A stretch of 64,000 bases of DNA, from contig NC_134509.1 in NCBI RefSeq assembly GCF_027942865.1, forward strand, positions 11,868,017-11,932,016, given 5' to 3'. The notes below the pieces were generated by a model that saw nothing but the letters and a program-made list of their open reading frames with translations, was not told where the DNA came from and searched no databases. The stretch comes from Odontesthes bonariensis (Eukaryota; Chordata; Actinopteri; Atheriniformes; Atherinopsidae). A program made the translations under genes and the position numbers. Positions 1 through 48,011 of this stretch are shown here, piece by piece; the first letter of the stretch is position 1, and each line of letters starts with the position of its first letter.

Positions 1-880
1 TAGGCGGCGGGTGAGCCCGGCATTTGGCAAGGCACCGAAATCAACGTTTTATTTATTTTTTTAACCAAAAATGGCATAAAAACGAGTTATTTAGCATAAT
101 TAATAACAACAACACAAGGATTCTGTTTCAAAATCAAAAAGGAGGACATGACGGTGACGGTGTGGAATTAATTTCCAATACTAACAAGTGTCCTGAGTGT
201 TCCTGTTTCTGTAACTTGACTGAAATATTGTTCCCATCTCGTACTCCATTGCTGGTAAAAGCAGGATCCTTATAGCCACTGTTGCACTGAAGTTGTCTGC
301 AGGGGAAACAGGACACAGCGTCTGCTGGAACCAAACTGTTTCCCAAATTTGGTCCCATGGTACCACGTCCACAGGAAGGCGGCCATTTTGGATGGAAAGT
401 GAGTTTTCGTGCCATTTTTGACCGATTCCACGCCTTGCATAAGATCGAACTCGTCCTAAAGATTTAATGCTACAGACTTCAAACTTGGCCAGGTTACTCT
501 TAAGACATGGGGGGGAAAGAATCATGAAGAAACTTTTTTTAAACTTAAAGGGCGTTGGCGTGGCGACGCCTCAAAGTTCGATGACTCGCCATCACTCGCC
601 ACAAAAAAATGAAGTCACTTATAACTCCCACATACATTATCCAATCTTTCCCAAACTTCATACGGTGAATGCTGGACCCAGCCTGAACATGCACATATAA
701 TCATAGTTTTATTATTAATAACACATTTATTATACAGTTATTACTGACATATATATATATATTGATGTGTTGATTTCACATGTGTTGATGGATCCCCTGG
801 AGTGGCCCCGGTTGGAGTTATTCTAACAGGTCCTCTGCTGCTAACGCAGATTCTCATGGTTGTCCTAAGGCAAGGCAAGG
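1..880. other. intergenic, nothing recognised
   Basis: No convincing coding exon, RNA gene or repeat family was recognised on either strand. The short ORFs here lack similarity to anything I know and lie in AT-rich sequence. A short AT dinucleotide run lies near 750. Confidence 0.5.
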
Positions 881-2235: not shown

Positions 2236-2990
2236 TTTAGATGATGGAGCGGGTCAACGCTAGGCTCAGATCTACCCCCCAGCCCAATCGCTTTTTGTCC
2301 CCCATAAACCCCCCACCAGAGCGGCCAAAGGTTCGCCACCGAGCCCCTCCCCTAGCAGAGCAGCCGAAGCAACAGCGCCCAACCTTGGTAAGGTTCCAAG
2401 GATGAGAATTAAAGCTTTTGTATGTATCTTCAGCATGTTTTGACAATGTGGCTGAGGTTTACAGAGTCGCCTCAATGAATTTCACCACTAAAAATAAACC
2501 AAAATCTGTCTCTAGGATCAACAAACTCGTAACATCTTTTCGAACATTTCAGTTTAGATTGTTCAGACTGACAAAGGTTTCTCCTGCCAAGAAGGATCAC
2601 TATTTGATTTTGACCCTAAGACTGTGTCAGAATAATCCTGATGTGCACTTTAATGTCAGTAAATATTTTCTAACCTTTGCTGTACCTGAGGTTGCGATGA
2701 GAGGTGGTGATTTGTTAAATTTGGAACTACTTAAGGAAAAAGTACCAAGAGCTGAGAGACTGATGTGATTGTACTTTCATGATTGTAGTTTGTAAGCATA
2801 TTTTGATTTTTAGAGTAAATTCTTGACAGAAAATCTCAATTAAAGTCCATCTTTCATGTTCAGTTGGCCTGATCTCTCCAGTCTACCTACCATTATTCTC
2901 CGAGAAGACCTCCTAAAAAAACGAAAGTTCCAGGTTTGCTAAAAATAAAATCAGTCGTAAAAGCATCACTGCTGTTTTGCATTCGTTGCA
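2236..2990. other. intergenic, one unexplained 116-codon ORF
   Basis: This is the stretch between the LINE remnant and the 3' end of the channel gene. A 116-codon plus-strand ORF (2418-2768) has no domain I recognise and no clear promoter or splice context. The upstream 2270-2400 is proline/alanine-rich if translated. I see no poly(A) signal clearly assignable to the channel. Confidence 0.35.
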
Positions 2991-5900
2991 GTTATACCTC
3001 TCTGCTCTCCTTGAGCGCTTGCATGATGGAGGCCACCACCAGGTTCCCCAGCACAAACTGGGCCACAATGACAAAGCTGGCAAAGTAAATTGGTGAGACC
3101 CAGAAGAGGTAGCTCACACAGCTGATGTCATCAGGGCGACATTCCCTCATTGTGTCCTGCAAGGCACAGAGCCAGATGTTCAGCAATTGGCCAGCAGGTA
3201 ACTTGGACATGATCAGCTATGATCCAGTGTTTGTTTTCAGTCACGATATATGGCAGGTTGTCAGGGTTTGGAGTGCGTGTGCGCTCATACCTTCAAGATG
3301 CCACTCCAGTTGTCTCCGGTGCAGACTCTGTAGAGCGTGAACATAGCCATCGGAAAGTTCCTGAAGTTGCTGTGCCGATGCAACCCCAGGCACGGGTAAT
3401 CAGGAGTACACACTGATCAACAGGGGCAAACAAAGCAGATGTGCAGATGTTAACGTTTCTGCGCTGTTGACATATTTGAGTAATGCATTTGAGGCAGAGT
3501 TTAGATCTTAAAGAACTGTGATCTTCCACGGGAACAGGCCTTTAATTCAACTCCACTGAATGATATGAATGATTTGGCACAACAAAACTGCTTAAAAGAA
3601 GATCTAGTTTGACTAAGGTGTTTGGCTACTCTTTAAAGCTCTTCTCCACAATACTGGAGAATATTTGCAATGCAAATACAAAATCATCTATCCGACCATG
3701 TTCCTTTGCAGAAGGTTTGTGTTTTTATGCTTGTCATGCTACTGGGACTCACCTAAGTTGCCAAAGAGCTCCACCCCCAGCGTGGAAAAGATGAAAGAGA
3801 AGAACATGAAGAGCAGACAGATGTTTCCAACCTGGAAAAAAAAGCTTGCATTAAATCCTCCGTAAATTCTCTGTCACAGCGCTTACATTTTATCATTCTT
3901 GGTTGCAAAGAGTTCAGAAGGACAAATGCACTAAATGTACAGCTTTACTATGTACAGAAAAATCTGAACGATGCTGGAAACCGAGTGGAACGGACAACAG
4001 TTCTGTCTGAAATCAGATAGAACAGCACGATCTGCATCCTTTTTTTGGAAAAGAGGTCTGGATTCAGTCTGATCATGCGAAGGGGTCAACTAAACTGTGG
4101 AAACTGAGCCACGCTAAGGGTGCAGAATTAGGTGCTTAAATGTGCCGCAGATCATACACTGGAAAAAAATCAAAATCTTACCAAGTATATTTGTCTCATT
4201 TCTAGTCAGAATATCTCATTACACTTGATATAAGACACAACTGCCTAACAAGTACTATTTCAGCCAGATATAGGGACTTGTTTGAAGACAATACATCTGG
4301 AATATTTTGTTAAATGAAAAAGTCTTGAAAACAAATTGTTTTGAGTCGGATTTCATATGAAACAAGCTTTTTTTGACATTTGAAGAGGTTTTTAAGTTAA
4401 TTTCAAGATCACTTTTATCTCAAAAGTTCCAAATATCACATCTTATTTCAAGAAATCTTGACAAGCCGATTTTCATGAGTTCCATTGGTAGATTTTTTTG
4501 CTTATTTCAAGCAAAAACGTCTTGTATTTGTTGTTTTTTTACTTATTTTTGGAGGGGCATTTTTTCCAGTGTAACTGCTGTGACACTTTGATAAGCCATG
4601 TGGTTCTGTGACTACTCACCCACTCCTACAGAGTAGGATCTGAAAATGATTACCACTTATTCTGCCTTAAAGTCTGAAAACATGTGAAGGGACTCGATTT
4701 TTAACGCTTCTAATCTTGTCCAATCAAAATGAATAAAGCGGACATGGCACGATCATTCCAGATAAGTTCAAAGATATCGTGCAGATTTCATGCATAGACA
4801 CATGAGAACAGAAATGTTTTTAACCTGGATTTAAAAATGTCTCCATTTGTTGAAAGTTTAATCCCCACTGGCAGTTTAGTTTTTAGTGACGGAACAGCCT
4901 TCAGTCTCCCCACAACGCCACCGCTGTGCTGGGCCTTTTTCATAAAACTGTCTTTTTCTTGACCATGTTGCAGGCCAGAAAGACCAAACCAAGCACATCC
5001 ACTAATTCAAGATTACTGGGTCATTACTGTGGCTTTCTTCACACTTTCTCCTGCCAACATCTGGTACTGCACTTGTCTGCAGTGCACACTCATGTTCACT
5101 CTAACATGTGCTGTTAGAGGTTACTGTGCTGGATAAATGTGTCCACAGCTGGAAAATGGCCCAAACAAACAGCAGAGAACCCAACTCATTCTCTCAGGTT
5201 TTAACACTTAATTTGATACCAAGCAATCCTTTTTATAGTTCCGTTTAACCGAATGGTTGCTAACTTATATTATGAGTTGTGGCACACTTAAAACACAGTT
5301 CTTTTATGGCTTTACTCGAGCTTTGAATAGGATAAATGCTATGCGATTAATTCATGTCCACTTTACTGCCGGAACCTTAACAAACAGTGTGTGTGTGTTT
5401 ACCCGAGACAGTGTCTTGATGACGGTTTTTATCAGAACTCTTAACCTCTTGGTCCTCAGCACTGATGAGAGACAGGGATTGTTGAGGAAAATTCTCTCAT
5501 TTGTGTGCGTACACACCTTTATCATGAAAGATTTCAAAATGTTTGTTTTTGTGTGTGTTTGTTTGTCTACCTTGTGCAACTTTGGAGATTCTGAAGACTC
5601 TCAGGGTGCTGGGAGTGAAGGGAATCATACGTCTCATCCCCATAATGCCGAGAAGGATGCTGACAACGGAAACTATCACGATAGCGATGTCCAGCAAGTT
5701 ACAGCTAAACACAGGCATGCATAAGGGCACACACACATGATGTCGGGGTCTTAAAATGCAACAAAAAAGACGCAGAGGAACAACAATTCTCCCTCATTCC
5801 AATGTGTTACCTGTTCTTTAGAAATGTAACGGGGCCAAAAGCTATCAGCTTCAGCACCATTTCACCAATCAGGAGGAGGGTGAAAACGTAGAAGCTATAA

Positions 5901-6170
5901 TCTGAAATTTGTGTCAAATACTAAAGAACACACACGTGTACAAACAGGGTTATAACCTTCACCTGAAAAGGCTGGAGCTTTCATCACCATCAGCGGTGTG
6001 TGTGTGAGCACGCGTTACCTGTGGCTGACCATAGTGCTCAAAAGACATTATCCCGACATTGATGATTATCAATGCAGGAACGAACAGGTCAAAGGCTCTA
6101 GTGGAACACACTTTGTATATAAAGCGCCGTACGGTGGAATAGTTCACATAGAACGGCTCCAGCTCCTGTT
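2991..6170 (-). CDS. Cav3-like channel, domain IV and C-terminus
   Basis: Exons: S1 (6170-6019, [20 protein letters not shown]), S2 (5920-5811, [20 protein letters not shown]), S3-S4 (5704-5571, [32 protein letters not shown]), S4-S5 (5461-5403, 59 nt, [20 protein letters not shown]), S5 (3831-3753, [14 protein letters not shown]), pore (3412-3291, [17 protein letters not shown]), S6 (3164-2991, [20 protein letters not shown]). The filter aspartate (TGDNW) is kept. All phases agree. The last exon ends ALKESREV followed by TAA at 2991, where family members continue with a long acidic C-tail. The stop overlaps a possible donor (GAG|GTATAA), so continued splicing is not excluded, but no downstream exon is visible. 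Confidence 0.85.
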
Positions 6171-9100
6171 CTAAAACACAAAAGACACACAGGCACAACT
6201 ATATTTCCATATACACAAACAGAATCAATGTAACTTTCAGAGGTGCTATAATCAATAGAAAACATCATAAAATCAGCTGTTTGCGTGCCCTAACCCAGTG
6301 GTTTTCAAACTTTTCCATGCCAACGCCCCCCAAACAGTATTAGCTTCTGGCCAGGGACCCCCTTTGCAAACCACAGACAATGCTACAAAATATGTAAAGA
6401 AACATCAACTTTTAGAACGTATTTTCTTTCTTTTCTTCACGGACAGTAGCTCGCTGTGTGAATGCAGCCTGACTAAATGCTCTTCTTTACGTCTGAAGAA
6501 GTCAACCGTTTTTTCGGACGGATGTTTTTGTATCAAGTGACGCTGAAGTTTCGAAGGTTTTGAACACTCATTTGAGAGGGTCTCCAGACAGAGGACGCAT
6601 TTCGGGCAATCGTGGCCATTTTTCTGTAGGGCTGTAAAGCCAAACTTAATGTATGCTGCCTCATACTTTCTGATTTTAGTCGGCCAGTTCTTTCAGTCTC
6701 TTCCAAGTCAAAAATCTGTCCATTTTGGCTAAGCTAGCTACACGCTAGCTTGAGGAGCAGAGCAGCTTGAGAACAGGCGCAAACCGCCAGGTCTACGATG
6801 TTTTGACTGGCAGCCAATCAGAAAGACAAGCATGGCAAATAACATTTCGATATGATATATTATTATAAATTGTATTTTACAATACTGATTAAAAAAATGT
6901 GACAATTTTTTATAATGATGTTTAAAAAAAATTGAATTCTATTTTTGCATTTTTTTCTTATCTTCACTCCAATTTTCTGAGGCCCCCCTAGCGCCCCCTG
7001 GCGGCCCCCACTTTGAAACCCCCCCCCCCCCCACACACACACACACCCCCTTCATTCCCCTTACGATTGCTCGGAAGTGAGTGCACTTGTCGCCCGCTTT
7101 CTTCAACTTCAAGTTGCTGCATCTGCTGACACTGGCAGAAGGTCTCCGCAATGATACTGATGAACATGTCGAGGAGAAAGAAGCTCACGAAGACGACGAA
7201 ATAAGCCAGGGCCAACTCGTTGTAGTTCCTTACAGGCTGAAAAGGGAGCAAAACTCAAATCTGATGTGTCCGTTTATCTCAAACTGCACATAACAGTGTC
7301 CAAACATAACATGTCGCTTGAAAGAAAAAAAAACACCGAACCTGTATGTCGACTGCGACAGCATCCAGCCCATCGTACATGAGATTCACCCAGCCATTCT
7401 TGGAGTACATCACAAACAGGGACATCAGAGCCTGAACAGAGAGATCAAGCAGCACACCCTGAGTTTACAGGAGCTGGTATTCAGAAAAGGAAAGCAGTTT
7501 TTTCAGCTTGTCTGAAACCTTCAGGACTGGAAAAAATCTAAATCTTACTAAGTATATTTGTCTCATTGGGTATCTTATTACACTTAATATAAGACACAAC
7601 TGCCGAACAAGTACCATTTCAGCCAGATGTAGGGACTTGTTTTAATACAATACATCTTGAATATCTTGTTAAATGAAAAAGTCTTGAAAACATCTTGTTT
7701 TGAGTCACATTTCACATGAAACAAGCTTTTTTTTTCCCTTTTCAAGCCGATTTTCACTAGTTCAAGCAATAAAATACAACAAAATCAAATAAGATAACAT
7801 AAGATAAAAGTGTCATCATACTACTGGGTATTAAAAGCAATCCTAAATAAGTAGGTTTTTAGCCCAGATGTGAAGAGGCCCAGGTCAGAAATAAGACGCA
7901 GCTGGACGGGGGGCTTATTCCAGAGCCTGGGGGCAGCTTTGGGAAAAGGCTCGGTCACCCCAGGGTTTGTGTTCTGACCTGGGCACTTCCAGCAGAAACT
8001 GATCTGTTGACCTCAGAGCTCTACCAGGACTGTTAAAAGCTCAGATAAATACGATGGGGCGAGGGCGCTAAGAGCTTTAAAAACAAACATTAAAAGTTTA
8101 AGGCCCCATCCACACGTAGCCGGGTATCTGCTAAAACGAATATATTTTTCTACGTTTGGACCTGTCATCCACATGAAAACGCATGAAAACGCATCGTAAA
8201 TGAATGTTTTTAAAAACTCCGGGCAAAGTGAAGATTTTTGAAAACTCCGTTTATGCAGCTGCGTGTAGACAGAGATAACCGGAGTTTTGCGTTTTCGAAC
8301 GTCACAATATGCGCCAAAACAACAACAAATCTGCTTTAAAGTCTAAAGTGCGACCTTTGTTTACTGAAGAAGCATGGATGCCTTGAGAACTGTGGTGGTT
8401 ATTATTGTGCAGGCGCTGTTTACTGCCTTGATTTTACACGCCCAAGTCGTACTCCCAGAGGAATGGCGTGGCAATTTCGCATGTCCCTGTCCTCACTCCT
8501 GTCGCTGTCGGAATTATTCCGTCCTCATATCGAGGGGCAGTCCACTGTCATGCGATCACCTGTCAGTGTGCTCAAAAAAGTTGCGTGCACACTTTATTAT
8601 TTAGCTGACGAGGGCAGATTGCGCAAAACAGCAAATGCATTTGGGTTGTCAAGACAGGTGAAAACGCAGATGTTCGGTTATGTGTGGAAGGTGTTTTTTT
8701 CGAAAACGAGGTAATGTGGATACAAATTATTTTATAAACGGAGGGGGAGAAATATTCGGTTTTAAAAATACCCGGCTACGTGTGTACATAGCCTAAAATC
8801 AGTTCTATAAAGGACAGGAAGCCAATGGAGGGAGTTAAGAACAGGAGTGATGTGCACACGTCTGTTGGTGTTGGTTAAAAAGACGGGCAGCAGCGTTCTG
8901 CACCAGCTGAAGGCCACTGAGAGAAGACTGGGAGACGCCCACATAAAGAGCATTGCAATAGTCTAACCTTGTCTAACAAGTCTAACAGGCTAAGTGTAGC
9001 CTGTGTGGCATGTGCCAACTTACTTACCCTCCTACACATCACGCAGTTACAATCCGGCTTTACTGTATCAAGGAATGACATGAATGCTAACCTGCGTCCT

Positions 9101-12100
9101 CTTTCTTTGAGGGTGTAAGTTCCTACCTGTAGGATGTTGTCAAAATTGTAGTTCTTTTGCACCCAGTGATAGTCGGCCGCCAGGCACTCAGACTTGCTCA
9201 CGATGTCGGTGACGTCCTCACCCACGCAGTGAAAGAACTTCCCCTTGAACAACTGAGGTTTGGGTGAAAGACAAGAGACAGTGAGTGCCCTCATCTCCTC
9301 TCTTCTACTTCAAAGCTGGTTGGCTGTTACACTGTCAATGCCCAGGAGTGGTACAGTCCTGAAGGGCAGAAAGAAGCTGTGCGTGCTCCTCACCTGAACT
9401 CCAAGTGTGCCGTAGAAGAAGAAGAAGAAGACGCCGCAAATGAGAAGGATGTTGGCCACGGGTTTCACAGAGGCCATCAGAGCCTCCACAGCCAGCTTCA
9501 GTCTCGAAGTCTTCTTGATCATCCTGGAGCACACAAAATGAAGCAAAGATGTTTGTTGGAGTCAGTGCACTGCAAAAAATGCCCCTCCAAAAATAAGTAA
9601 AAAAAAAACAAAAAAAGCTTGTTTCATGTGAAATATGACTCAAAACAATTTGTTTTCAAGACTTTTTCACTTAACAAGATATTCAAGATGTATTGTCTTC
9701 AAACAAGTCCCTATATCTGGCTGAAATAGTACTTGTTAGGCAGTTGTGTCTCATTAAGTGTAATGAGATACCCAATGAGACAAATATACTTGGTAAGATT
9801 TAGATTTTTTCCAGTGTAGCAGAAATATGTCGGCAGATTGGTGACATGATGCCACACAAATAGAAAGCAAACAGATTTATAACGTACCTGAGTGGGCGGA
9901 GAGCGCGTAGCAGGCGTATAACCTTGAGGGTGCTCAGCCTCTTAGCCTTTCCAGATGTGACAACAGTGATACATATGTTGACCAAAGACGTGATCACCAG
10001 ACTGCCATCCAGGATATTCCAGGAACACTTGATGTAGCTTCCCTCTCCAAATATCAAGCCATTGGCCATTACCTGGTGTTAGAGAAAGGACCCATCCAGT
10101 CATGTTTAAGACACGTAAAGTCCCAACAGCATTCCTCAAGTCAAATGAAAGCTTTGATTTCAAAGCAGAACTCAGATGACACAAAGTAATTTTACCTTCA
10201 AAAACATCTCCACAGTGAACACAAAGGTCCCGGAATGACACACTGAGTCCAGTATCCATCGCTCCTAAGGGTCAAACAAGAGGTTCATTTTCAACCTTTT
10301 TGTCTTACAAATAACAACATTCATTTTTCACAACTCATTTGTCCCATTAAATTCCTAACAGATCGGTCTATTTCACGTCATGTTTGTGTGTGTCAGACTG
10401 GAAGCGTGTGTGCTCTTTGCAGCTTTCGAGAATTCCCTTCATCTCACCGTGCTGTTGGGGGAAATGCCGGGTCTCTCAAAGGCGATAGTGAAGCAACACA
10501 GCAGGATGACCAACAGGATCCCAATGTCAAACCTTGTGTCATCGGTCAACTTCTTGCAAAATGTGCGGAATCTGAACTCACACACACGCACACACACACT
10601 AGAGTCAAACCAGCTGTAATCGGTTAAAGATACAAAGAAAAAAGAAGGGCATTAAAGTGAAATATGTGTCCCCGCAAAATTGATTAAATGCTTTGGATGA
10701 CCCATTTTGATTTTAGCTGTGTGGGAACACTGGAAAAAAACGCTCCTCCAAAATAAGTAAAAAAACAACAAATAAAAGACGTTTTTGCTTGAAATAAGCA
10801 AAAAAATCTGCCAATGAAACTAGTGAAAATCGGCTTGTCAAGATTTCTTGAAATAAGATGTGATATTTAGGACTTTTGTACGGTGGCCGACACGTGCAAA
10901 CGCGCTGCAAACGCGCTGCAAAGTATATGCTGTATTCTAGATGAATTTTTATGTTGTAGAGTTGTGAATTTATTTTATCAATGGAGAAATTGAGCAGCCT
11001 TGCTTTGCTGTCTATAGTAGTAGATCAACCCTCATCTTACTTTGAAGCTCCCAGATCAAGGAAGTGACGTCGACGCAGCTTTAGCAGCAGAGAAGCTATT
11101 AGGCTTGTGTTGATAATAATAAACTCCTGGACTATGTACAAACTTCCAAATGCATCGTTCTGTGAGTACAGACCATATTTGTACTACTGTAGAAGTTTGG
11201 TGTCATGGCATGTGATTTTAGTGTGGTAATTTTGGAGATACTGCCAGGGTCCGTTAGCGCTTGTACTAAGCTATTCGGGATAACTCAGTAACTCAGCTGA
11301 TGGTCAGCCAAGATCGAAAAAACTTTGGGTGGGCTACTTGGCTGGATGACACGGTGCAAATGACCCTAGGGTGAATCTACTCCGAACCATCACTTTAAGT
11401 GTAATGAGATATTTTGACTAGAAATGAGACAAATATACTTGGTAAGATTTAGATTGTCTCCAGTGAATGGTAAAAAATACACCAAATCAGATGCGCAAAA
11501 TAAACGGTAATACAAGAAACCTGAGCAGACAGTGCCCGAAGACAAAAGTGACAACAGCTAACACAGCGGCCTGAAAGAACAAAACACAGCAGGCCAAAAC
11601 AAGACGAAAAACATCTCACAATTTCAGGTGAGCGAGATTTCTGAAAACACAACAATTAAAAAAAAGTGCAGAGTTCACATTAAACTGCAAATAACAGCTC
11701 GAGTTGTAAAATCCTGCGTGTTAGTGTGGGACACTTGCTTGTTTTCTGGAGGAACCAGGTAGAACGTCCAGTCTTCGCGCTCTTTGCACCAGGGCAGCAC
11801 TCTTCGGATCAAACGTGCCTGTGGGTGTTCAGCAGTTACACATGATGAAAAAGCCAAAAAAAAAAACTACAAAAAGTACAAGCAACTACATTTCTGCTTC
11901 TCCTAAAGGCACTTGTATTAAAGGCGGTAAATGACCACCACACTGGAAAAAATGCCCCTCCAAATATAAGTAAAAAAACAACAAATACAACACGTTTTTG
12001 CTTGAAATAAGCAAAAAAATCTACCAATGGAACTATTGAAAATCGGCTTGTCAAGATTTCTTGAAATAAGATGTGATATTTAGGACTTTTGAGATAAAAG

Positions 12101-15100
12101 TGATCTTGAAATTAGCTTAAAAACCTCTTCAAATGTCAAAAAAAGCTTGTTTCATATCATATGTGACTCAAAACAATTTGTTTTCAAGACTTTTTCATTT
12201 AACAAAATATTCCAGATGTATTGTCTTCGAACAAGTCCCTATATCTGGCTGAAATAGTACTTGTTAGGCAGTTGTGTCTTATATCAAGTGTAATGAGATA
12301 TTTGGACTAGAAATGAGACAAATATACTTGGTAAGACTTTGATTTTTTCCAGTGCAGCAAAATGTTGCACTACTTCTTTAAACCCCGGAGCGGCTTCCAT
12401 CATGTCGCTTTATCATTTGTGAAATCTTGGAAAATCTTCCCTTGAGCTTAAAGACTTTAACTCTTTACTCTCACAAACTCACGTCGCTCCAGTTCGAACG
12501 GGTCGGCGCAGAGGCTTCCCCAGCAATGTTGGTAGGGTCGCTTTGAGTGGAAGTTGTTGGGCCCTGGAACAACATGAACAAAGGTGTATGTGTGGGAAAA
12601 TACAGCGTTCCAGCCACCTCACCTTTTAGGAGCACAGTAAAAAGTTCCAGTTTGGTTTCGCTGCCTCACAGAACATGATCCCAAGGCTTCTGGAGCCTTT
12701 CCAGATGTGCTCTGCACATTGGAGACCATTTTAGTTGTGCTTGTGGCCTGTACAGCGCCTGTTGCCACGAGGTCTTCATGGAAGTCTCTGGTGTCACCTG
12801 AGGGTTTTTATCCGCTTGTTTTCTTAGACATCTTTGTTCATAACTTTCTCTTTCCGCCACACCCTTTGTCCTGTGCAGCATCTGTATCTTCAACCTCAGA
12901 CTTTCAAACTATAAACTCTACAGTATCTGAACAAGGATTAAGTGCATCTACTTCCTGTTTTGCAGCCTCTTCTCTTCACATTCGGTGCACCGTGCAAAAA
13001 TAAACCTCATCAGAAAAACCAAAGTAAGCTTACATGACATGACATGACATGCATATTTACTTTTACACCTTGAAGTCTCCGATCTGCATCTAGATGCAAT
13101 ACATTCAAGTGGGAAATGAAAGAGACATTAAAAATCCTCTGTGAGGAGTTTGGACACTTACATCTTCAGGATTCAGCGTAGTTGAAGGGGGGGGTGGTGT
13201 TGTCAGTGGGTATCACAGTGGGCTTTAAGACAAAGAACATAAAAAAAATAGTTTTTCATAGGTCTATGCAGGTGTTTCTGTCATTTATACTTAAAAGCCA
13301 TGCTGGATGAGCGTTTCAACATGACCCTACCAGAGACTGGAAATTCCTAACCACAATGCCCACGATAACATTGAGAAGAACGTTTTTCCCAATCACGATG
13401 AGGGCAATGAAGCAGAGAGCCGCCCATGCGGAGGTGGAAGCCATGGCGTTGAACAGCACCAAATTCCAGTCTTCCAGGGTCAGAATCTGGATCGATACGT
13501 TGATAAAAATGCAAAGATTGATACAGAAAATATGACAAAGAATGATCAGAGGGTCAAAAACCAACCTGGAACACTGTCACCATGGACCAGAGCAGCGAAT
13601 CAAAGTTTTTTCTGTCATCAGCGGGATCTCCATCTGGGGAAATGTACACAAACTTGCAGCCAAACAGGTACATACCCACGACACTGCAAAAAGACAACAG
13701 ATCCAAGTGAGAGTCAGTCAAGTCGCATCTGGGAGCCTGTGTAATGTTATAAGCGGGCGCTCGTCAAGGAACCCTTTGTGCTTAACGTGTGTTACTTGCC
13801 CGAAGATGAAGATATAAAACAGCATCAGCCAGCAGAGTGTGGACGCCTCCTCTATGGACCTGTACAGCACCATCAGCTGCCTCTTCAGGTAGGGGAAGTG
13901 GTGAACCAGCCTCCCGGAGCCCAGCACGTCCTAAATATCACATCTTATTTCAAGAAATCTTGACAAGCCGATTTTCAATAGTTCCATTGGCAGATTATTT
14001 TTGCTTATTTCATGCAAAAACGTCTCGTATTTGTTTTTGTTTTATCTCCTCTTTTATGCCAAGAACCTAAACTGAGATTTGAAAATTAGGGAGCCTGAGA
14101 CCTCCATCCTCATATTGCAGTGATAATTTATCCATGCTAAGTCTTGGTGGCTTACCGTGCCAGATAAACTTCCTAATTGTTTTTTTAAGAGATATAAAGA
14201 ATGCGTTTGGTATTTGAATTGGGAGTGATTGAAACACATATAGAAACCTAGGAAGGATATTCATCTTCTACCAAATAATTTGAGTGGTAAGTCCATCCAT
14301 TTTCCTAAATCCTCAGTCACCTTCCGAAGAAGGCTAGGTAAATTTAGTTTAAAGAGGTTTTTGAGGTTACCATCCACATATATTCCTAAATATTTGAAGC
14401 CCTCAGGAGACCACTTGAAATTAGACACATTTTTAACTTTATTGTGGTCAAATACAGAAATCGGTAAAACCTCACTTTTTTCCAAATTAACTTTGTACCC
14501 AGATATTGAACTGTATCTACCCAATAAGTCCTGAAGGCGACAAAGAGAATATTCCGCATTGGTTAAAAATAAAATGATATCGTCAGCAAAAAGCGGAATC
14601 TTATGTATGTCCGTACCTATCTCAAACCCGCTAATATTAGAATTTTTCCTAATGGCCTCAGCCAAGGGCTCAATAGCAAGCACAAATAGGGCGGGACCAA
14701 CTGGATCTCCCTGTCTGTTGCCCCTATAAAGCCATCAAATCCAAGATAAGCGAATGTTGTTCATGTGTTCATTCACAACGGTTTCTGAGATGTTTTTCAT
14801 CGCGTTCGGTTTCCATTTCACACAGCGTCCCAACTTTTTCGGGTCTCGCAGTTTCATCACGTCTCATTTTTTAAAGTTAACTGTCAACGCAGCCCAGTGA
14901 GAGAAGGAACAAATAAACGTTCTTACGTGAGGATGTCCTCTCCCAGAAAGCAGCGGTTGCGCAGCTCCCCGCCCCACAGCTGAACTCCAATTACAGCGAA
15001 GATGTGAATCACAAACAGGTACACGATGAGGACATTTCCAAGCATGGGCACAGAGTCCAGGAGTATGGACACCAGATCTCGAAAACCTACACAGGTGAAC

Positions 15101-17448
15101 ACAAGAGGATAAATCAGGTTTTCACACATTGTGGCCACACCTTCTTTTAAACTTTGATCTTCACGACTGAAACACATCACCAGATATTACTTTTAGTGAC
15201 AGACTGGCATCATCTCAGTCGTTGTTTGACCTGCCACGACCTGTATTGAAAATACTGGCACCTAAAGGCTTAAAATTTGGGCTAAAAAGTTCAAATTGGC
15301 ATCTAAAGGGTAAATTTTTTTAATATAATTGAAAACTTGGTGGTTATGATCAGAACTGAAGTGGAATAAAAGATTTATGAAAAAAAAAATATATGATGTT
15401 TTTAGGTCGTTTTAAAAGGGAACTAAAATGTTCCTTTTCAGAAATGAAGGAGTTTTTTTTTTTTTAAATTAGACAGCAAAAAAATTTAAAATCCCTAAAA
15501 ATTTATGTTGTTGCTGATCATTGACATATCCCAGACCATAATTATCCCTACTCAATAATTCCACTTTGCATTCTATATATTGAAAATATAGCAGTTTTTT
15601 TTGGGTTTTTTTTACAGAAATTGGCGTTTACACCATATAAACCAGTATTTAAAGGGTTAAATTTTTGAAAATAATTAAAAACTTGGTAGTTATGATCAGA
15701 ACTGAAGTGGAATAAAATATCTACGGAAAAAAAGCGCAAAAAAATATTAACATGTGATGTTTTTAGGTAATTTTAAAAGGGGACAAAAATGTCCCTTTTC
15801 AGAAATTAAGTTGTGTTTTAAATCAGGTATGAGGGTTAAGTGAGTTCAAATGAATGAGATCAAAGAGTTTTCACTTTCAGGAAACAGACCATCATCATTT
15901 GATCTAAATTAGAGATAAAAACAACCATTCATCCATCAGGAAAACTTTGAAAGCAATCAACGAAACCCTGGTCTAAAACGGTTTCATTCACATTCAGATA
16001 GAAAAAGCTACATTTTCAAATGTTTTTGTTGAAGATAAACTCAGAAGAAGCCCTGACAGCAGGGTGACATTCATCCTCTCACCACACCCCTTAATGTTCA
16101 AACATCAGCTTACTCTGTATCCTGCTGATCAGCCGTATCGGCCTGAGCGCGTGACCGACTCCAAAGTTGACTCCGAACGCGGAAACGATGTAGTCCAACA
16201 TCCTGAGAAGACAGTTGCAGACAGAAACAAGAGGACACGTTTCATTTCATTTCATCAGTGATGAAAAGAATACGGAGCTGACGTGAGAAATAGTGGGATA
16301 CTGACTGTCCACAGGCGATAATCGCGTCAATTTTGTTCCATTTGTCTGCGAGGTAGCTTCCTCGGTGGCCGTAGGCGCCTTGGGCGACCATCTTGACCAT
16401 CATCTCGCAGAGAAAGTACGCAAAGTCAAGGCCTTTCAATACCTGGTTGGATACAATAAAAAAGAAATACACAAGATCAATGGGTGAATATATCATCACT
16501 GAAAAACAGAACACTGAAATCTCTGTTGTACCCGCACACAGAACTAAGTTCTGAACTGGAAAAAATGCCCCTCCAAAAATAAGTAAGAAAAACAACATTT
16601 TTGCTTGAAATAAGCAAAAAAATCTGCCAATGGGACTAGTGAAAATCGGCTTGTCAAGATTTCTTTAAATATAATGTGATTTTTAGGACTTTTGAGTTAA
16701 AAGTAATCTTGAAATTAGCTTAAAAACCTCTTCAAATGAAAAAAAAAAAGCTTGTTTCATGTGAAATATGACTCAAAACAAGATGTTTTCAAGACTTTTT
16801 CACTTAACAAGATATTCAAGATGTATTGTATTAAAACAAGTCCCTATATCTGGCTGAAATAGTACTTGTTAGGCAGTTGTGTCTTATGAGACAAATATAG
16901 TTGGTAAGATTTAGATTTTTTCCAGTGTGGGTTTCAGTCTTTGAGTTCCCGCCTCTGCAATGCATGGCTCTCACTAACCTTTTGGTAAGTTTGCTCCCCT
17001 TCACCAGGACTGTACATGCCCAAAGACACGGAGCTCACCAGGATGACAATTACTGAGAGATAGCGCAACCACGTGGAATATGTTAAGGTCAGAACCCATT
17101 CTGTGATTTGACTGCAACACAGGTCTGATGTTTACAGAATGGAGGCACTTAATCGGGCCGCTCGCTGTCCTTTTGGAAATGACAACTACATTATTGGCAC
17201 TCAAAAATGGAAAGAAATGGAAGCAGGAAAGCTGTGTTATAATGAATAACTGGTCTTATCAGGTGTCTGCCTAAGTATTTTTCAAACAATATGAAAGGAT
17301 ATGAGCTGCGCGCTATATTTATGCACCATGCACGAAATTTGGTGGTCTGGTGTAAACGCCAGAAAGCCACCGGGGGCAGGTCGGGGAACGGTAACTCCTG
17401 CTCCTCCGGCCTCCCAGAGGTGCTCGCCTGTTCCTGCACAGGGAGCAT
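2991..17448 (-). CDS. divergent T-type (Cav3-like) voltage-gated calcium channel alpha1 gene, probably decaying or incomplete
   Basis: Pore-forming subunit of a low-voltage-activated calcium channel by family; plasma membrane. Exons, minus strand: 17448-~17337, 17111-16979, 16442-16306, 16202-16114, 15086-14927, 13930-13800, 13683-13566, 13486-13331, 13222-13162, 12563-12483, 11818-11739, 10571-10448, 10264-10196, 10072-9888, 9523-9394, 9252-9127, 7431-7342, 7236-7065, 6170-6019, 5920-5811, 5704-5571, 5461-5403, 3831-3753, 3412-3291, 3164-~2991. Cav3 hallmarks: PMLGNV in IS5, GMYLFGCKF in IIS5, KEREDW before IIIS1, HYGQPQ after IVS1, CTGDNW in the IV pore. Missing: I pore to start of II S4. 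Linkers and both termini are very short compared with the ~2,000-residue family. Odd: frameshift in one linker exon, filter Asp to Asn in III, lost charges in I S4, stop just after IVS6. Paralogue identity (1G, 1H or 1I type) cannot be assigned. It may be a pseudogene. Confidence 0.82.
4157..4571 (+). mobile_element. MITE copy 1 (full length, CACTGGAAAAAA inverted ends)
   Basis: The ~415-bp element has ends CACTGGAAAAAA and TTTTTTCCAGTG and is flanked by TA on both sides. Internal landmarks shared by all copies are CTTACCAAGTATATTTGTCT and AAATCTTGACAAGCCGATTT. It has no coding capacity. Superfamily is unclear: the flanking repeats look 2 bp long. Confidence 0.85.
4575..5400. other. channel intron, mostly unremarkable
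   Basis: This is intron sequence between the IV S4-S5 and S5 exons. A short degraded LINE 3'-end-like piece is visible near 4800-4930 (AACCTGGATTTAAAAATG). No exon was found on either strand. Confidence 0.4.
6296..7018 (-). mobile_element. hAT (ZBED/Charlie-like) transposon remnant
   Basis: The left end is CAGTGGTTTTCAAACTTTT. The right end has a matching CACTTTGAAA that runs into a C tract, so that terminus is damaged. Minus-strand translation around 6740-6540 gives a broken N-terminal BED-finger region: [15 protein letters not shown], then after frame changes [21 protein letters not shown] and KPSKLQRHL, the typical C-x2-C and K-x-x-H spacing of fish hAT transposases. The catalytic region is absent. 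It sits in the domain III-IV intron of the channel gene. Confidence 0.75.
7019..7047. repeat. C-run and CA microsatellite
   Basis: A run of about 14 C is followed by (CA)n at the damaged right edge of the hAT remnant, 20 bp from the end of the domain III S6 exon. Confidence 0.9.
7065..10571 (-). CDS. Cav3-like channel, domain III
   Basis: Seven exons in consistent phase: S1 (10571-10448, [20 protein letters not shown]), S2 (10264-10196, [12 protein letters not shown]), S3-S4 (10072-9888, [11 protein letters not shown] and [14 protein letters not shown]), S5 (9523-9394, [20 protein letters not shown]), extracellular loop (9252-9127, [21 protein letters not shown]), pore (7431-7342, [18 protein letters not shown]), S6 (7236-7065, [20 protein letters not shown]). 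S4 charges are intact. The pore has SKNGW where Cav3 channels have SKDGW, so the filter acidic residue is replaced by Asn (codon AAT). The 1.7-kb intron between loop and pore holds a LINE with a nested Harbinger element. Confidence 0.88.
7525..7766 (+). mobile_element. MITE copy 2 (3'-truncated)
   Basis: Same family and orientation as the 4157 copy. It starts ACTGGAAAAAATCTAAATCTT and loses the right end after an internal deletion near 7740, where TTTTTTTCCC joins TTTTCAAGCCGATTTTCAC. Confidence 0.75.
7770..8101 (-). mobile_element. degraded LINE 3' end, part 1 (split by Harbinger)
   Basis: This is a diverged relative of the 881-2235 LINE. It reads CAGCTGGACGGGGGGCTTATTCC and continues across the inserted element at 8794-8970, where the minus strand gives [19 protein letters not shown]. 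Heavily mutated. Confidence 0.6.
8102..8793 (+). mobile_element. PIF/Harbinger element, internally deleted, with TAA target duplication
   Basis: The 692-bp element has 26-bp imperfect inverted ends that both contain ACACGTAGCCGGGTAT. It is flanked by TAA at 8099-8101 and 8094-8096 in the mirrored position at the right end (8794-8796). A 3-bp TWA-type duplication is the Harbinger signature. Inside, the plus strand encodes a transposase N-terminal piece ([33 protein letters not shown]) with a start near 8463 and a frame change after it. No DDE region remains. It is inserted into an older LINE fragment. Confidence 0.85.
8794..8975 (-). mobile_element. degraded LINE 3' end, part 2
   Basis: Continuation of the LINE interrupted by the Harbinger element. 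Minus-strand translation shows [20 protein letters not shown], matching the C-terminal region of fish L2-type reverse transcriptases. Confidence 0.65.
9568..9816 (-). mobile_element. MITE copy 3 (internally deleted)
   Basis: Inverted relative to the 4157 copy. It starts CACTGCAAAAAATGCCCC and ends TTTTTTCCAGTG. About 165 bp of the middle is missing. Confidence 0.8.
10738..10878 (-). mobile_element. MITE copy 4, left part
   Basis: It starts CACTGGAAAAAAACGCTCC and runs to GATATTTAGGACTTTTG, then is interrupted by unrelated DNA. The right remnant is at 11396-11465. The flanks are AA on both outer sides. Confidence 0.75.
10879..11395. other. unidentified insert inside MITE copy 4
   Basis: About 515 bp replace the middle of the MITE. 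The left edge has a direct repeat of CAAACGCGCTG. It has no coding potential and no recognised family. It is probably an interspersed repeat or the filler of a deletion. Confidence 0.4.
11396..11465 (-). mobile_element. MITE copy 4, right part
   Basis: Carries AAGTGTAATGAGATATTTTG and ends CTCCAGTG. It matches the terminal 70 bp of the full-length copies. Confidence 0.75.
11739..13222 (-). CDS. Cav3-like channel, shortened II-III linker exons
   Basis: Three small exons. 13222-13162 is Thr/Pro-rich and ends GAAGAT|GTAAGT. It is 61 nt because of an 8-C run; with 7 C it would be 60 nt, open, and in phase with its neighbours. 12563-12483 (81 nt, phase 0, donor GAC|GTGAGT) is Ser/Thr-rich. 11818-11739 encodes [19 protein letters not shown], matching the conserved Cav3 motif just before IIIS1. 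The linker is about 75 residues, far below the several hundred usual in Cav3. The first two exons are inferred from phase and splice sites only. The third is supported by homology. Its exit donor must be AA|GCAAGT (GC type) to join the next exon in frame. Confidence 0.55.
11941..12354 (-). mobile_element. MITE copy 5 (full length)
   Basis: A 414-bp copy inverted relative to the 4157 copy, with intact ends CACTGGAAAAAA and TTTTTTCCAGTG, flanked by CA on both sides. It lies in the II-III linker introns of the channel gene. Confidence 0.85.
12590..12905 (-). mobile_element. Tc1-like transposase fragment (degenerate)
   Basis: The minus strand reads a decayed middle portion: [16 protein letters not shown], a stop, then GSETKLELF. 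This corresponds to the Tc1 family block ending WSDETKIELFG. Inverted repeats were not located. Confidence 0.45.
13331..13930 (-). CDS. Cav3-like channel, domain II end of S4 to S6
   Basis: Three exons. 13930-13800 encodes the S4-S5 linker and S5 ([27 protein letters not shown]). 13683-13566 encodes GMYLFGCKF and [17 protein letters not shown]. 13486-13331 encodes the pore and S6 ([19 protein letters not shown]). The domain II filter glutamate (LEDW) is present. The exon at 13930 begins exactly at the edge of a truncated MITE whose sequence supplies a TATTTAG acceptor-like end, so its natural 5' part is probably lost. Frame continuity from the first to the second exon needs a GC donor (GG|GCAAGT). 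Domain II S1-S3 is not in the window. Confidence 0.85.
13931..14045 (+). mobile_element. MITE copy 6 (truncated both ends, abuts an exon)
   Basis: A fragment covering CCTAAATATCACATCTTATT to TTTGTTTTTGTTTTA. Its left edge is the exact 5' boundary of the domain II channel exon on the minus strand. Its right edge joins the L1 fragment. Confidence 0.8.
14046..14740 (-). mobile_element. L1-type LINE reverse transcriptase fragment
   Basis: The minus strand encodes [20 protein letters not shown], then [10 protein letters not shown] (the catalytic YADD equivalent is FADD), [15 protein letters not shown] and, after a shift, [17 protein letters not shown], the order seen in vertebrate and fish L1 ORF2 palm and thumb. 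Both ends are truncated. It occupies the interval where the channel's domain I pore to domain II S3 exons would be expected. Confidence 0.85.
14927..17448 (-). CDS. Cav3-like channel, N-terminus and domain I S1-S5
   Basis: Five exons. The first starts at Met 17448 and carries a short cytosolic N-terminus with [14 protein letters not shown], matching the LPYPALAPVVFFYL-type Cav3 start. Its donor is uncertain (C|GTGCAT near 17337 or a site a few bases on). Exon 2 is S1 ([18 protein letters not shown]), exon 3 is S2-S3 ([13 protein letters not shown]), exon 4 is the S3-S4 loop and S4, exon 5 is S4-S5 and S5 ([27 protein letters not shown]). From exon 2 on, phases agree (0, 2, 1, 2) and donors are good, for example CAGA|GTAAGC and CTCAC|GTAAGA. 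S4 reads [11 protein letters not shown] and lacks the first two arginines of Cav3 S4. The pore and S6 exons do not follow. Confidence 0.8.
15290..15830. repeat. pair of ~160-bp diverged direct repeats, AT-rich
   Basis: Two modules (about 15300-15460 and 15655-15812) share GTTATGATCAGAACTGAAGT, then GATGTTTTTAGG, then CCTTTTCAGAAAT. They lie in one intron of the channel gene and have no coding potential. The separator is AT-rich. Confidence 0.75.
16554..16927 (-). mobile_element. MITE copy 7
   Basis: Starts AACTGGAAAAAATGCCCC and ends TTTTTTCCAGTG, with a deletion of about 40 bp near the right end. Same orientation as the 11941 copy. Confidence 0.8.
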
Positions 17449-17634
17449 GATGCTGAGCTGCTGCCGCCTCGGTCCCTCAGCGACAGTTAAGACTCTGGAT
17501 CACAAATACTCTGTAAGAAAGTCAGAAATATGCAGGAGGAGAAGGGGTCAGGATAGATTAATTACATGGACATAAAGACAAAGACTACGTGTGTTCAGGG
17601 GAAGAAAAATAATTTGATCTATTTATTGTCACAG

Positions 17635-18040
17635 ATCAAAGTCTTACCAAGTATATTTGTCTCATTTCTAGTCAAAATATCTCATTGCACTTAATATAAG
17701 ACACAACTGCCTAACAAGTACTATTTCAGCCAGATATGGGGACTTGTTTGAAGACAATACATCTGGAATATCTTGTTAAATGAAAAAGTCTTGAAAACAA
17801 ATTATTTTGAGTCACATATCATATGAAACAAGCTTTTTTTTTGACATTTGAAGAGGTTTTTAAGCTAATTTCAAGATCACTTTTATCTCAAAAGTCCCAA
17901 ATATCACATCTTATTTCTTGAAATCTTGACAAGCCGATTTTCACTAGTTCCATTGGCAGATTTTTTTGCTTATTTCAAGCAAAAAGTCTTGTTTTTGTTG
18001 TTTTTCTTACTTATTTTTGGAGGGGCATTTTTTTCCAGTG
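17635..18040 (+). mobile_element. MITE copy 8
   Basis: Same orientation as the 4157 copy. The left terminal inverted repeat is lost (it begins at ATCAAAGTCTTACC), while the right end TTTTTTTCCAGTG is intact. It lies just upstream of the first recognised channel exon. Confidence 0.8.
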
Positions 18041-18195
18041 CAGTATTTCATCGTTATTTTTATCGTTTTTTTTATTAGCAATATAAATTATGTCAAGCAA
18101 TCGTCTCAAATTATCAGTGGAGAATCTATTTAGAATAAACCCTGTTTGATCGGGGTTGATCAGTAAGGGTAAAGGGTTAATTATATTATTTGTAC
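18041..18195 (-). mobile_element. L1-type LINE fragment (RT fingers region)
   Basis: The minus strand reads LLINPDQTGFILNRFSTDNL followed by RRLLDIIYIANKK, the conserved L1 motif HPDQTGFI-x-GR-x-x-x-DN-x-RR. Only about 150 bp remain, abutting MITE copy 8. Confidence 0.7.
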
Positions 18196-18925: not shown

Positions 18926-20010
18926 GAAAGCAGGCATGTCCAAACGCAACGCGAATGCAACGCGGGGCTCGGGCACACGCGTTGCATTCTGGGATATGGT
19001 CGCCATATTGGATGCACAATCTATCGTAAACAAACCGAGGCAAGACAGAGATCAAGGAACAAACAGTGAGAGAAAAGCATGTAAAAATCGAAGAAAGGAT
19101 GTGGGATATACCGGGATACATTACAGAAGGAAGCCAGAGATCGGTACATACAGAAGATTGGCGTTATAAACGGACTGGACCCTTATGAAATACCGAGCAA
19201 GGAATGGAGTGTCGACGAAGATTTACTGCCGAAGTTCACCCTTTCGGACATAATTGCGTATAGTATGTGGTGTCAGTGCTTATACTTTGCAACAGTTTCA
19301 ATTCTAATGACACTTCACACTTTTGTCATGTTACTCTACTTGTAAATAAATAATGTAACACACACACTTGGCTGTATCTCAAAGCACATTTATTTCAGAC
19401 GACTTCAACTTTGCACAACACTCCTGCTCATGGTGGTCAGAGTACAACATACAGACACAATCTTGTCAAAGAATGTTTTGTCTTCACCTTCGCATGGCAA
19501 AACTATGTTGATAGGTACTTTTGCTGACAAAAAGGTGTATTGTTTCTGACAGTTCCAATCGCCCTTTCCACGTGAATTCGGAGATGGGCAAATTTCCTTG
19601 TATTTTCCACATTGGATTAAGATCAGATTTATTGTCATGTATACATGCATACACACGAAATTTGTCCTCCGCTTTTAACCCATTGAGACATCCCTTGCTT
19701 CCAACTGACAGTGTCCTCTTGTGAAGGCGGGGATCTTTACCTCAGCACACAAAAGTCTGTAACTTACCAGAATGAAAATGCAGAGAACACGCTCTCATCG
19801 ACACCGGGATTGAGTGGAAAGTTATGTTTGGTCGTCTTACAGCAGCGATCCATGCTAGTCGACGACGCGTTGTTATCTCGGACACTTGGTCTCCGTGGGT
19901 GCGCCTCCAAGCAGGAAACCGGTAAAAAGATAAACCATTTACGATTTCCCCCCCATTCCTGTCACGGCTTGCGCTATTGCACCCCACGACACAGCAACGT
20001 TTGACCATAG
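18926..20010. mobile_element. ISL2EU-like DNA transposon remnant (THAP/DDE transposase and YqaJ nuclease pieces, convergent)
   Basis: Two convergent gene fragments. Plus strand: a start near 18937, then about 19140-19275 gives IGVINGLDPYEIPSKEWS, DEDLLPKFTLSDIIAY, the region before the YqaJ-type nuclease domain of fish transposon proteins. Minus strand: a THAP domain from Met 20013 (CCVVGCNS, FYRFP, RRRLAWIAAVRR, ACSLHFHSG) ending at a G|GTAAGT donor near 19773. Then 19660-19400 is a decayed DDE_Tnp_4 C-terminus with VPINIVLPCEGEDKTFFDKI and VCCTLTTMSRSVV. THAP plus DDE_4 plus YqaJ is the ISL2EU gene set as I know it. The catalytic middle parts are missing. Confidence 0.55.
19617..19692. repeat. 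short dispersed fish repeat
   Basis: Contains TTATTGTCATGTATACATGC and ACACGAAATTTGTCCTCCGC followed by TTTTAACCCATT, a tail seen in many fish interspersed repeats. It lies inside or beside the ISL2EU-like remnant. Confidence 0.55.
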
Positions 20011-21054
20011 ACAATAAGTAAGATAGATAAACCAACGAAGAAAGTTCCAAGACCAGGCGGGAGTACGTCCTGCGCGCAGTGGAAAACAATGTAAACAAAA
20101 CAGTTCTGCGCTTCCAGTATGGCCGCCGCTCACGTAGTGACGTCACATGCCCGCAAAGGGCCATGTGGCTGCAGGTGGTGATGTTAGTGTTACCTCCAAC
20201 ACCGAAGCTTCGAAGCATGCTTCAAACTCGCTGGAGAAATTGTCTAAAAAAAAAAAGAAACCGTTTGAGCCCTTCTACTGTGCAAAAACTACTTTTCTTG
20301 AATAAAAACACGTGAAGTAACACAAGCACCCTCTTTATTACACCAAGCACACTCCCAAAGAAAATATGAAAGACAAACCAAAAATGTTCACATTGTTTTT
20401 AAATTATTGTGTTATATACAGAAGAGATGTATCATTTGCTTCATTTGGTGCAACAATCGCTACTGCCAGTAGATGTAACCCAAGGGAATTGAATGAAGCT
20501 TCGGGTAGTGAACCACTTTATGACACAATGGTTCAAAATTATTCAATTGCCATCACCAGCTGCAGGTTTTCGTCCCAAACAGGCTTTGACTCAGATAATC
20601 AGCTGATCTCAGTCTGCAGATAGTTGATTGGTCAAACTGTGTGCTTATATATAAATAATTATCTATCTAATATATATTATTATAAATGTTTTATATTTAT
20701 ATATATATATATATATATAGTTATAATTGATTCCTTATTTTAGGCAACTCGGGGCTGCTTGCTGTTTTTGAATGTGCTGCATGGTCTCCGCCACCAGATG
20801 GCGCCCGCAAAGGAGTCGTTGAGCTCCGCCCCCTCAAGGTTGATCTCCGCCCCGATCTGCAGTCAGGGGTACTTGGGTTTCAACAGGTGAGCGTTAATTG
20901 GCTGCGTGAGCACGCTATTTGAGCGCCAGCTCTTCAATGAGTCGGAGTTTTGGCTGGCCAGTAGATTGTTTCGAACCTTTTCTTAAGCAGGTAAAGTGTT
21001 TTAAAAGAAGCTGAAGCCACCTGTTCTCTCACTGAACCTCAAACTGTGCACAAC
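20011..21054. other. intergenic and perilipin 5' region
   Basis: Outward of the THAP start is GC-richer DNA, then an AT-dinucleotide microsatellite (about 20645-20720). The last ~120 bp before the start codon form the likely 5'UTR and core promoter of the perilipin gene. No clear TATA box near 20930. Confidence 0.4.
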
Positions 21055-22984
21055 ATGCCGACGAACAACAACCTGGTGAGTATAGGCTGCAAAGAGCAGA
21101 AATAACCCCTTAAATTGTAGCTAATATACGTCTTCTGAGCCCTATTGTTTGACACCCGAATTGGAAAGAAATGTCCAGGTGAATTTCCTTTTTTTTTGCT
21201 CTGTCTCTTCTGTTCTTTTAGAAAGTACCTAGTGCAGTTGCCAGGCTGGCCCAGCTGCCTATGGTACTGTCAGCTCGTGCCACACTATCGGTGCTGTACA
21301 GGGACACAAAAAGCATCAATCCCAACCTGAACTCCATGTGTGACGCTCTGGAGAGCAGGGTGGTCGCTTTCAGCGCCGCCGCCTGTACCACAGTTTCACC
21401 TGTCATTGTCAAGTTCGAGCCTCAAAGTAAGTGGATGGCGTTACAGGCATTAATTGCACTTTTAAAAGCCTTGTTTGCTGAAGGGGAAAAGAGATGGTGA
21501 AAACCCTGCACCAAGTACACAACTTTAGCTCTAAGCAATTATAAATGCACAGCTCGTTGAACAAGGCTGCTTGTTTGATGGATTGGTGTGTCTTCATAGT
21601 TTCCATTGCAAATAACGTTGCATGCAAAAGTCTCGACTGGTTGGCGATTTCATTCCCTGTGCTTCTGTCACCCACGGACCAGGTAGTTTTAACTTTCCTC
21701 CTTCAAAACATGCTAATCTCCACATTTATTTATTCTTAAATTCCTCTGAAAGAGTAAACAAAGGGATGCTTATCAATGTGCTTCTGACTTCGTCGTAAAG
21801 GTTGTGGCTACTGCCAAGAACAAAATGCAGGAGATTCATGATGTGGTGAGCATTACAGCCAAAGGAACAGTGGACTGTGTGCAGTACGCCGTCAGACAGG
21901 TGATGAGCGGGATCCTTCAGGCTGACGATGGAGCGAGCAAGTCTCTGGTGGAGAGAGTGGTCAGTTTTGCCAGTGTGGGGCTGGACTCTGCGCTGAGTTT
22001 GTCTGAGGCTCTGGTGGATCAGGTGCTGCCCCCCTCTGACAAAGATAAAGGTACATGGCACACATCAAGTCTGTGTTGTGAAACGATGCAGATTCTTACT
22101 GAAAGCCTGCGCTTTTCTTTTTCTGTCCCTAGAAGACGAGGCCCACTTGGTTGAGGGTTTTGAGGGTGCCACTCACAAGGGACGGTACCCTGAGCGAATG
22201 CTTTCACTCACTACTAAACTGTTTAAGAGGACCTACCAATCAGCTGGGTCCAAGATCCAGACTGTTCAGGTGTGCTATGAGTACAGTTCCAATCCCTACA
22301 TGTGGAGGGATGGGTGTTTTTGTCATGTCGTGAGCATTGGTCAGTTATAAAGTGACATCCTCTCTAATTCATGACATTGAACTGTGATGGCCACTATTAA
22401 AATAAATAAATCATTGAAACTCCAAAATATGCTTTTTTTTTTTTTTTTAAATTAAAAAAAGTTTGTCCTAGTAGAGGAATAATATATAGTGTACAATAAA
22501 GCTGTTAACTTGAGACTATTATGACCTGTACATGGCCACTGGAATGTGTCAATGTGACTAAAACCACTGCATTATTCATTTTCCAAACCTCTCTCTCCTA
22601 AAATGAACTACTTCCCCTTTTGGCTGACACATTTTATACTGATCTCAACAGGTCATGGAGAGTGTATCCAGGTCCACTACTCTGGTGCAGAACCTTCGGA
22701 GCAGCTGGGTGGGCCTGATCTGCAGCCTCCAAGAACTGCCTCAATACCTGCAGTATCGGGCTGTGTCTGTGTTTTTCTTCATCGCTCAGATGTACAACGT
22801 GAGCAGTCTACCATCCCACAAGGTGCAGGCTAAAAACGGAAAGCGCCCCGGAAACGCCACCGACACTTCGTCAACTTGCATGGTGCTGGCTCGCCCACAA
22901 ACTACACCTGCTTTCAGAATGAGGCCCACCAGGACATTTGTGTTCGACAGCAGCTGTAATGTTAAGGGCTGTGTGCGCCGTTGA
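21055..22984 (+). CDS. perilipin family lipid-droplet protein (PLIN2/PLIN6 type)
   Basis: Coats lipid droplets in the cytosol and limits lipase access (family knowledge). Exons: 21055-21075, 21222-21426, 21600-21682, 21801-22050, 22133-22269, 22652-22984, all GT-AG with matching phases, about 341 residues. The N-terminal PAT region runs over exons 2-3: VARLAQLPMVLSARATLSVL, KSINPNLNSMCDALESRVV, then ISIANNVACKSLDWL, which aligns with the ISVANTYACKGLDRI stretch of PLIN2. The central 11-mer amphipathic region is short. The last exon keeps part of the four-helix region (SRSTTLVQNLRSSWVGLICS, LQELPQYLQY) and then has a Thr/Pro-rich, Cys- and Arg-rich tail in place of the normal bundle end. A polyadenylation signal AATAAAATAA lies near 23043. 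Its place beside rps6 fits the PLIN2 block, but the divergence suggests teleost plin6 or a lineage duplicate. Confidence 0.85.
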
Positions 22985-24613: not shown

Positions 24614-29578
<4,965 letters not shown>

Positions 29579-29630
29579 TTTGCCAAACCGACCCAACGAC
29601 GGTCCGCTACGGGAAAGAGACCGGATATCC
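29579..29630 (-). promoter_or_regulatory. rps6: rps6 5'UTR with likely 5'TOP start
   Basis: On the minus strand a pyrimidine run CTCTTTCCC lies about 35-40 bp before the start codon. It fits the terminal oligopyrimidine tract that begins ribosomal protein mRNAs and links them to mTOR control. The exact start site is inferred. Confidence 0.6.

Positions 29631-33349: not shown

Positions 33350-48011
<14,662 letters not shown>

Follow-up and report, generated by a model that had tools for sequence, protein, structure and literature searches.

A Cav3-type calcium channel duplicate with L1 and MITE fragments in place of exons 6 to 11, most likely a deletion pseudogene

We found that a Cav3 (T-type) calcium channel gene of Odontesthes bonariensis, which occupies positions 17448 to 2883, read on the minus strand, of the 64,000-nucleotide stretch analyzed here (the window; C4:11868017-11932016 in a genome of 945 Mb and 187 contigs), lacks exons 6 to 11 as well as the initial 58 bp of exon 12, with about one quarter of its coding sequence missing. 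Judged from the sequence, we put the probability at about 0.88 that this gene is an unprocessed Cav3-type duplicate in which the arrival of an L1 fragment was followed by one or more deletions and which is most likely a pseudogene, with a copy on contig C19 likely being the working gene.

The C19 copy was found through a 95% match to a query spanning the 3' portion of exon 5 and the adjoining intron. The C19 region is colinear with the window, introns and flank included, from the left edge of the window to 18056. This duplicated block (window 1-18056, with no strand assigned, common to C19:8355242-8378219) is interrupted in its match, and shared pieces, likewise interrupted, continue for 4.56 kb beyond the left edge of the window. 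The end of the block at 18056 lies about 16 bp beyond a MITE. Our C19 model, predicted from splice signs and homology with exon ends read by hand, comprises 32 exons, 3945 bp and 1314 aa, with no internal stops, sound splice sites, AT-AC ends of the U12 type at intron 1, and GC donors in two introns. When the predicted protein was compared to solved structures, the top four of the 152 matched sequences were Cav3.2, Cav3.3, Cav3.1, and Cav3.1 (1292.5 to 1183.6 bits; 1250.6 for Cav3.3), while Cav1 and Cav2 channels scored at most 476.6 bits, Cav2.3 (alpha-1E) being the next after the Cav3 entries. A Pfam scan of residues 1-661 returned two Ion_trans stretches, and the four pore positions read E, E, D, and D (in TLEGW, TLEDW, SKDGW, and TGDNW), an acidic series that we take to be the motif of Cav3 (T-type) channels. 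By its sequence, the C19 copy is a Cav3 (T-type) channel, with its best matches across all four domains to the T-type alpha-1 subunits (CACNA1G, H, and I). On the other hand, the solved Cav3 entries have chains of 2116-2261 aa compared to 1314 aa in the C19 model, whose linkers and C terminus are short, and this gene is set apart from about five ordinary Cav3 loci in the same genome. It is the sole member of its family that can be read whole.

With AT-AC ends and the 5' site ATATCCTTT, intron 1 of the window copy (17302-17073) resembles U12-type introns, as does intron 1 of the C19 copy; the assignment follows what we take to be the U12 5' site consensus. A published account (PMC6865273) reports that U12-type introns are enriched in voltage-gated families.

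When the 32 C19 exons were mapped to the window, 25 were found whole and with splice dinucleotides that match (exons 1-5 and 13-32), together with the 3' part of exon 12, and exons 6-11 gave only short chance alignments. All surviving exons lie on the minus strand. Exons 1-4 (16114-17448) carry the start codon and domain I S1-S4. Exon 5 (14927-15086; domain I S4-S5 linker and S5) is the last whole exon before the loss and ends at 14927 in phase 2 with two codon bases left over, just as an earlier note on this DNA had read it. The remaining 5' part of intron 5 (14734-14926, 193 bp) is colinear with C19 local positions 34655-34847. On the far side of the loss, the exon 12 remnant (13800-13927; domain II S4 end to S5) retains 128 of 186 bp and its GC donor, while its acceptor and 5' 58 bp are gone. 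The earlier note had the channel resume with an exon at 13930, and this start has to be given up: homology to C19 begins at 13927, and 13930 merely follows a chance TTTAG. It was right, however, that joining 14927 to 13930 shifts the frame, with a stop after 14 whole codons. Exon 13 (13566-13683, phase 2) and exon 14 (13331-13486; domain II pore and S6, placed by exon mapping from C19) come next, followed by exon 15 (13162-13222) and by exons 16-32 (2883-12563; end of the linker, domains III and IV, and the stop codon), which keep their splice dinucleotides. With exons 6-11 and the 5' part of exon 12 absent, the window copy does not possess four complete domains. Measured against C19, an interval of 6955 bp with 955 coding bases (local 27697-34651) corresponds to 803 bp of the window (13928-14730). 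Upon reading its sequence, we also noted that the C19 interval includes a piggyBac-like stretch of about 2 kb, which may never have existed in the window copy.

The middle exons are absent from this locus, as had been proposed. The colinear C19 paralogue carries them and so reveals what was removed, and a paralogue at 42.4 Mb on C4 has exons 10 and 11. A genome-wide DNA search with exons 10-11, for which all three candidates were scored, located them at C19 itself, C4:42407181 (91%), and C21:9857435 (90%), and not at the window locus. In the C4:42.407 copy, both exons are open in the alignment as read by eye. Because an apparently intact copy is present on C19, the organism does not lack these exons.

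What lies between the surviving intron and exon 12 is a scar of two mobile-element pieces, and its content agrees with the earlier description. The first piece is an L1-type ORF2 fragment with a reverse transcriptase (14046-14733, minus strand; Pfam RVT_1, 5.9e-11 at 14264-14734), which is truncated at both ends, the position of the inner end being approximate. The second is a 118-bp fragment (13928-14045, minus strand) of a high-copy MITE of about 420 bp. Compared to the best of five L1 places, the L1 piece carries 15 substitutions in 676 aligned bases (2.2%), and relative to genomic copies it has internal deletions of 13 bp, 14 bp, and about 55 bp, the last near the inner end. Since 2.2% is less than the intron divergence of 3.9-4.4% between the window and C19, the L1 piece probably arrived after these two copies parted. 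Neither a 3' tail nor a target-site duplication, as expected of L1 insertion by target-primed reverse transcription, is seen, and the fragment ends inside ORF2 on both sides; it is possible that the 3' end was removed later. The intron/L1 junction shares 3 bp (GGC, 14733-14731), the MITE/exon 12 junction (13928/13927) shares 1 bp and cuts inside the exon, and the L1/MITE junction falls at about 14046/14045. The scar thus has three junctions, two of them with shared sequence, and therefore records more than one simple deletion. As candidate sources of the MITE fragment we considered the C19 MITE before exon 6 (94.0%) and the one before exon 12 (88.6%), but unrelated copies elsewhere in the genome match better (96%), so that the point at which the deletion started cannot be fixed.

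Of the two alternatives to a deletion pseudogene, the one that survives better, though we hold it improbable, is that the exons are present at the locus and went missing from the assembly where contigs were merged within repeats. The scar is indeed made of repeats, and among the 42 matches listed the MITE has 31 further places and the L1 several more. However, 1 bp and 3 bp of shared sequence would be too little for joining by overlap, the MITE junction cuts within exon 12, the window does not contain a single N, and, among the matches listed, further members of the family are short of exons too, in different combinations. The L1-MITE join was found only at the window locus when 40 of 731 candidates were scored. 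The colinear C19 copy, the 3-bp and 1-bp junctions, and the cut inside an exon instead support a deletion with retroelement debris at the breakpoint, which the earlier note had raised alongside an assembly join.

The statement that the remainder of the gene keeps its phase stands for nearly all of the whole exons, which are open and differ in length by no more than a net +3, -6, and +3 bp, all in exons 16-32. It fails for exon 15, which at 61 compared to 60 bp has gained a base within or next to a C run, with a +1 frameshift and a stop as the result. In such a sequence context, the additional base may be a sequencing error. The loss of exons by itself imposes no frameshift, because exons 5 and 13 both have phase 2 and a splice between them stays in frame. 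If both exon 15 and what is left of exon 12 were skipped, the message would have an open frame of 933 codons, which is a sign of little other decay and not evidence of use. Lesions are in fact fewer than expected for an old pseudogene, which counts against the pseudogene reading, and either the loss is recent or the copy is of some use. That the locus is still used, by way of an exon 5 to exon 13 splice and a skip of exon 15, we regard as the more remote of the two alternatives. The product of 933 codons would retain domains III and IV along with portions of domains I and II. In its favor, the start codon and splice sites are kept, and skipping exon 15, whose junctions are phase 0 on either side, leaves an open frame. 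Against it, two skips are required, the domain I pore and S6 would be absent from the product, as would domain II from S1 to most of S5, so that no pore would be complete, and the domain III pore has N where C19 has D.

At the domain III pore (window 7431-7342), the window reads SKNGW compared to SKDGW in C19, with the D presumably occupying a meaningful pore position. Of 97 differing residues (in exons 1-5, 13-14, and 17-27 only), the Cav3.2 residue is kept by the window at 21 and by C19 at 28 (p 0.39), while exons 17-32 score 778.8 bits against Cav3.2 for the window and 833 bits for C19. One-sided decay of the window copy, favored by the bit scores but opposed by the residue polarity, was therefore rejected, and the even residue count weighs against the pseudogene reading.

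Returning to the deletion pseudogene, the window gene is an intron-bearing duplicate with disabling lesions and an intact copy elsewhere in the genome, as described for unprocessed pseudogenes, and its introns, which can be aligned to C19, set it apart from processed (retro) pseudogenes. Introns, a block common to the intact copy, lost exons, and a frameshift are what it shares with unprocessed pseudogenes carrying an internal deletion; it differs from them in that its surviving exons are nearly all open, in the L1 and MITE scar, and in the presence of other incomplete copies of the family. Since any product of the window copy would be unable to form a four-domain channel, the copy is most likely a pseudogene, and the loss would most likely represent a recent deletion in a segmental duplicate. 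In the order of events that we infer, a divergent Cav3-type gene was duplicated with its introns and the window copy separated from its relatives; the L1 fragment would then have come to rest in intron 5. Deletion, in a single step or several, would have taken out exons 6-11 with the beginning of exon 12 and left the L1 and MITE pieces at the scar. Either end joining or template switching may have carried out the repair.

Right of the channel gene, the window also holds a THAP-domain reading frame at 19742-20221 (Pfam 3.3e-9), possibly a transposon remnant, a perilipin-like exon at 21750-22154 (Pfam 4.5e-8, at the cut-off), and a ribosomal protein S6 exon at 27629-27913.

C19 residues 1-661 as a genome query gave 78 matches, with 67 of 179 candidates scored. 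Close relatives, each described by the matches listed, lie at C21:9.85 Mb (exons 1-3, 6-8, and 10-14), C4:42.4 Mb (from part of exon 6 onward, with none to exons 1-5), C4:34.46 Mb (exons 1, 2, and 4), C21:9.00 Mb (exons 3-4), and C14:6.16 Mb (pieces of exons 6 and 7). Stop counts in the table of protein matches are uninformative, as they also occur in open C19 exons where matches run into introns. About five more loci with 36-65% identity (C26:20.75, C4:3.42, C26:18.36, C28:24.05, and C4:31.8) look like ordinary Cav3 genes, and the handful of weaker matches probably represent other channels. With exons 25-28 as a DNA query, seven substantial and two short places were found (nine of nine candidates scored), adding C28:23.40, C4:34.63, C4:34.45, and C4:42.39. 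From its strand and its distance of 20 kb, we infer that C4:42.39 is part of the C4:42.4 copy; in the 6 kb between the C4:42.4 parts, there was no tblastn match and no blastn match of at least 120 bp. Over exons 25-28, the window is nearest to C4:42.39 (introns 4/366), with C19 further away (11/361), and frame-breaking changes occur in three of the seven copies (C4:34.63, C28, and C14). Altogether, these are dispersed short Cav3-like genes on C4, C19, C21, C14, and C28, several of them incomplete or frameshifted in the parts seen. No tandem paralogue was found in the stretches fetched near the window or C19 locus, and no paper on such a short Cav3-like subfamily was found in the literature searched, which is no proof of absence.

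Between the window and C19, exons differ at 190 of 2824 positions and introns at 196 of 4998 (3.9%; Fisher 6e-8), a comparison that leaves out the badly aligned introns 22 and 24; when these are included, introns (517/6621, 7.8%) exceed exons (180/2664, 6.8%). The step in divergence is located at exon edges. Over exons 25-28 (window 5380-6200; C19, C4:42.39, C4:34.45, C4:34.63, C28:23.40, and C14:6.14), exons differ more than introns in all 21 pairs, with ratios of 1.5 to 9.7 and p <0.05 in 20 of 21, the pairs being non-independent. On the other hand, exons 10-11 of C19 and C4:42.4 show little excess (9/126 and 6/149 compared to 13/333). The exon excess is therefore clear in part of the gene and uneven. 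For ten pairs, silent and replacement rates were mostly alike, nine having a pN/pS of 0.63-1.21 and the other 3.18. CpG decay was rejected as the cause, since the excess persists without CpG sites (138/2536 compared to 159/4817). Positive selection alone is not shown by a dN/dS of 0.74 (bootstrap 0.55-1.04) over 922 codons aligned without exon 15 and the exon 12 remnant. Changes were not significantly clustered within exons (33 close pairs compared to 28.4 expected, p 0.17). Candidate causes are conversion between older copies, selection for diversity, and a mutation bias toward exons.

The fast exons of venom genes offer a likeness. In accelerated segment switch in exons (ASSET; PMC2711939), paralogue exons are also reported to differ more than the adjacent introns; unlike those cases, the gene here encodes a channel, shows no sign of swapped unrelated segments, and has silent rates close to its replacement rates.

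The deletion itself is ordinary, a duplicate gene in breakdown; its main import is a caution, as the exons are present elsewhere in the organism, and an entry to an amplified T-type channel subfamily. T-type channel genes usually exist as few, slowly changing copies. The pattern of exons changing faster than introns is the more interesting lead and would need a mechanism if it survives fuller data. We tentatively suggest, while thinking it rather doubtful, that the window belongs to a short T-type subfamily with seven or more scattered loci, whose exons, over part of the gene, diverge several times as fast as the introns, and do so equally at silent and replacement sites. If true, this would point to a process confined to exons, either diversifying selection of great intensity or recurrent conversion with older paralogues or spliced copies as donors, and the deletion in the window would be one casualty of a channel family in fast turnover.
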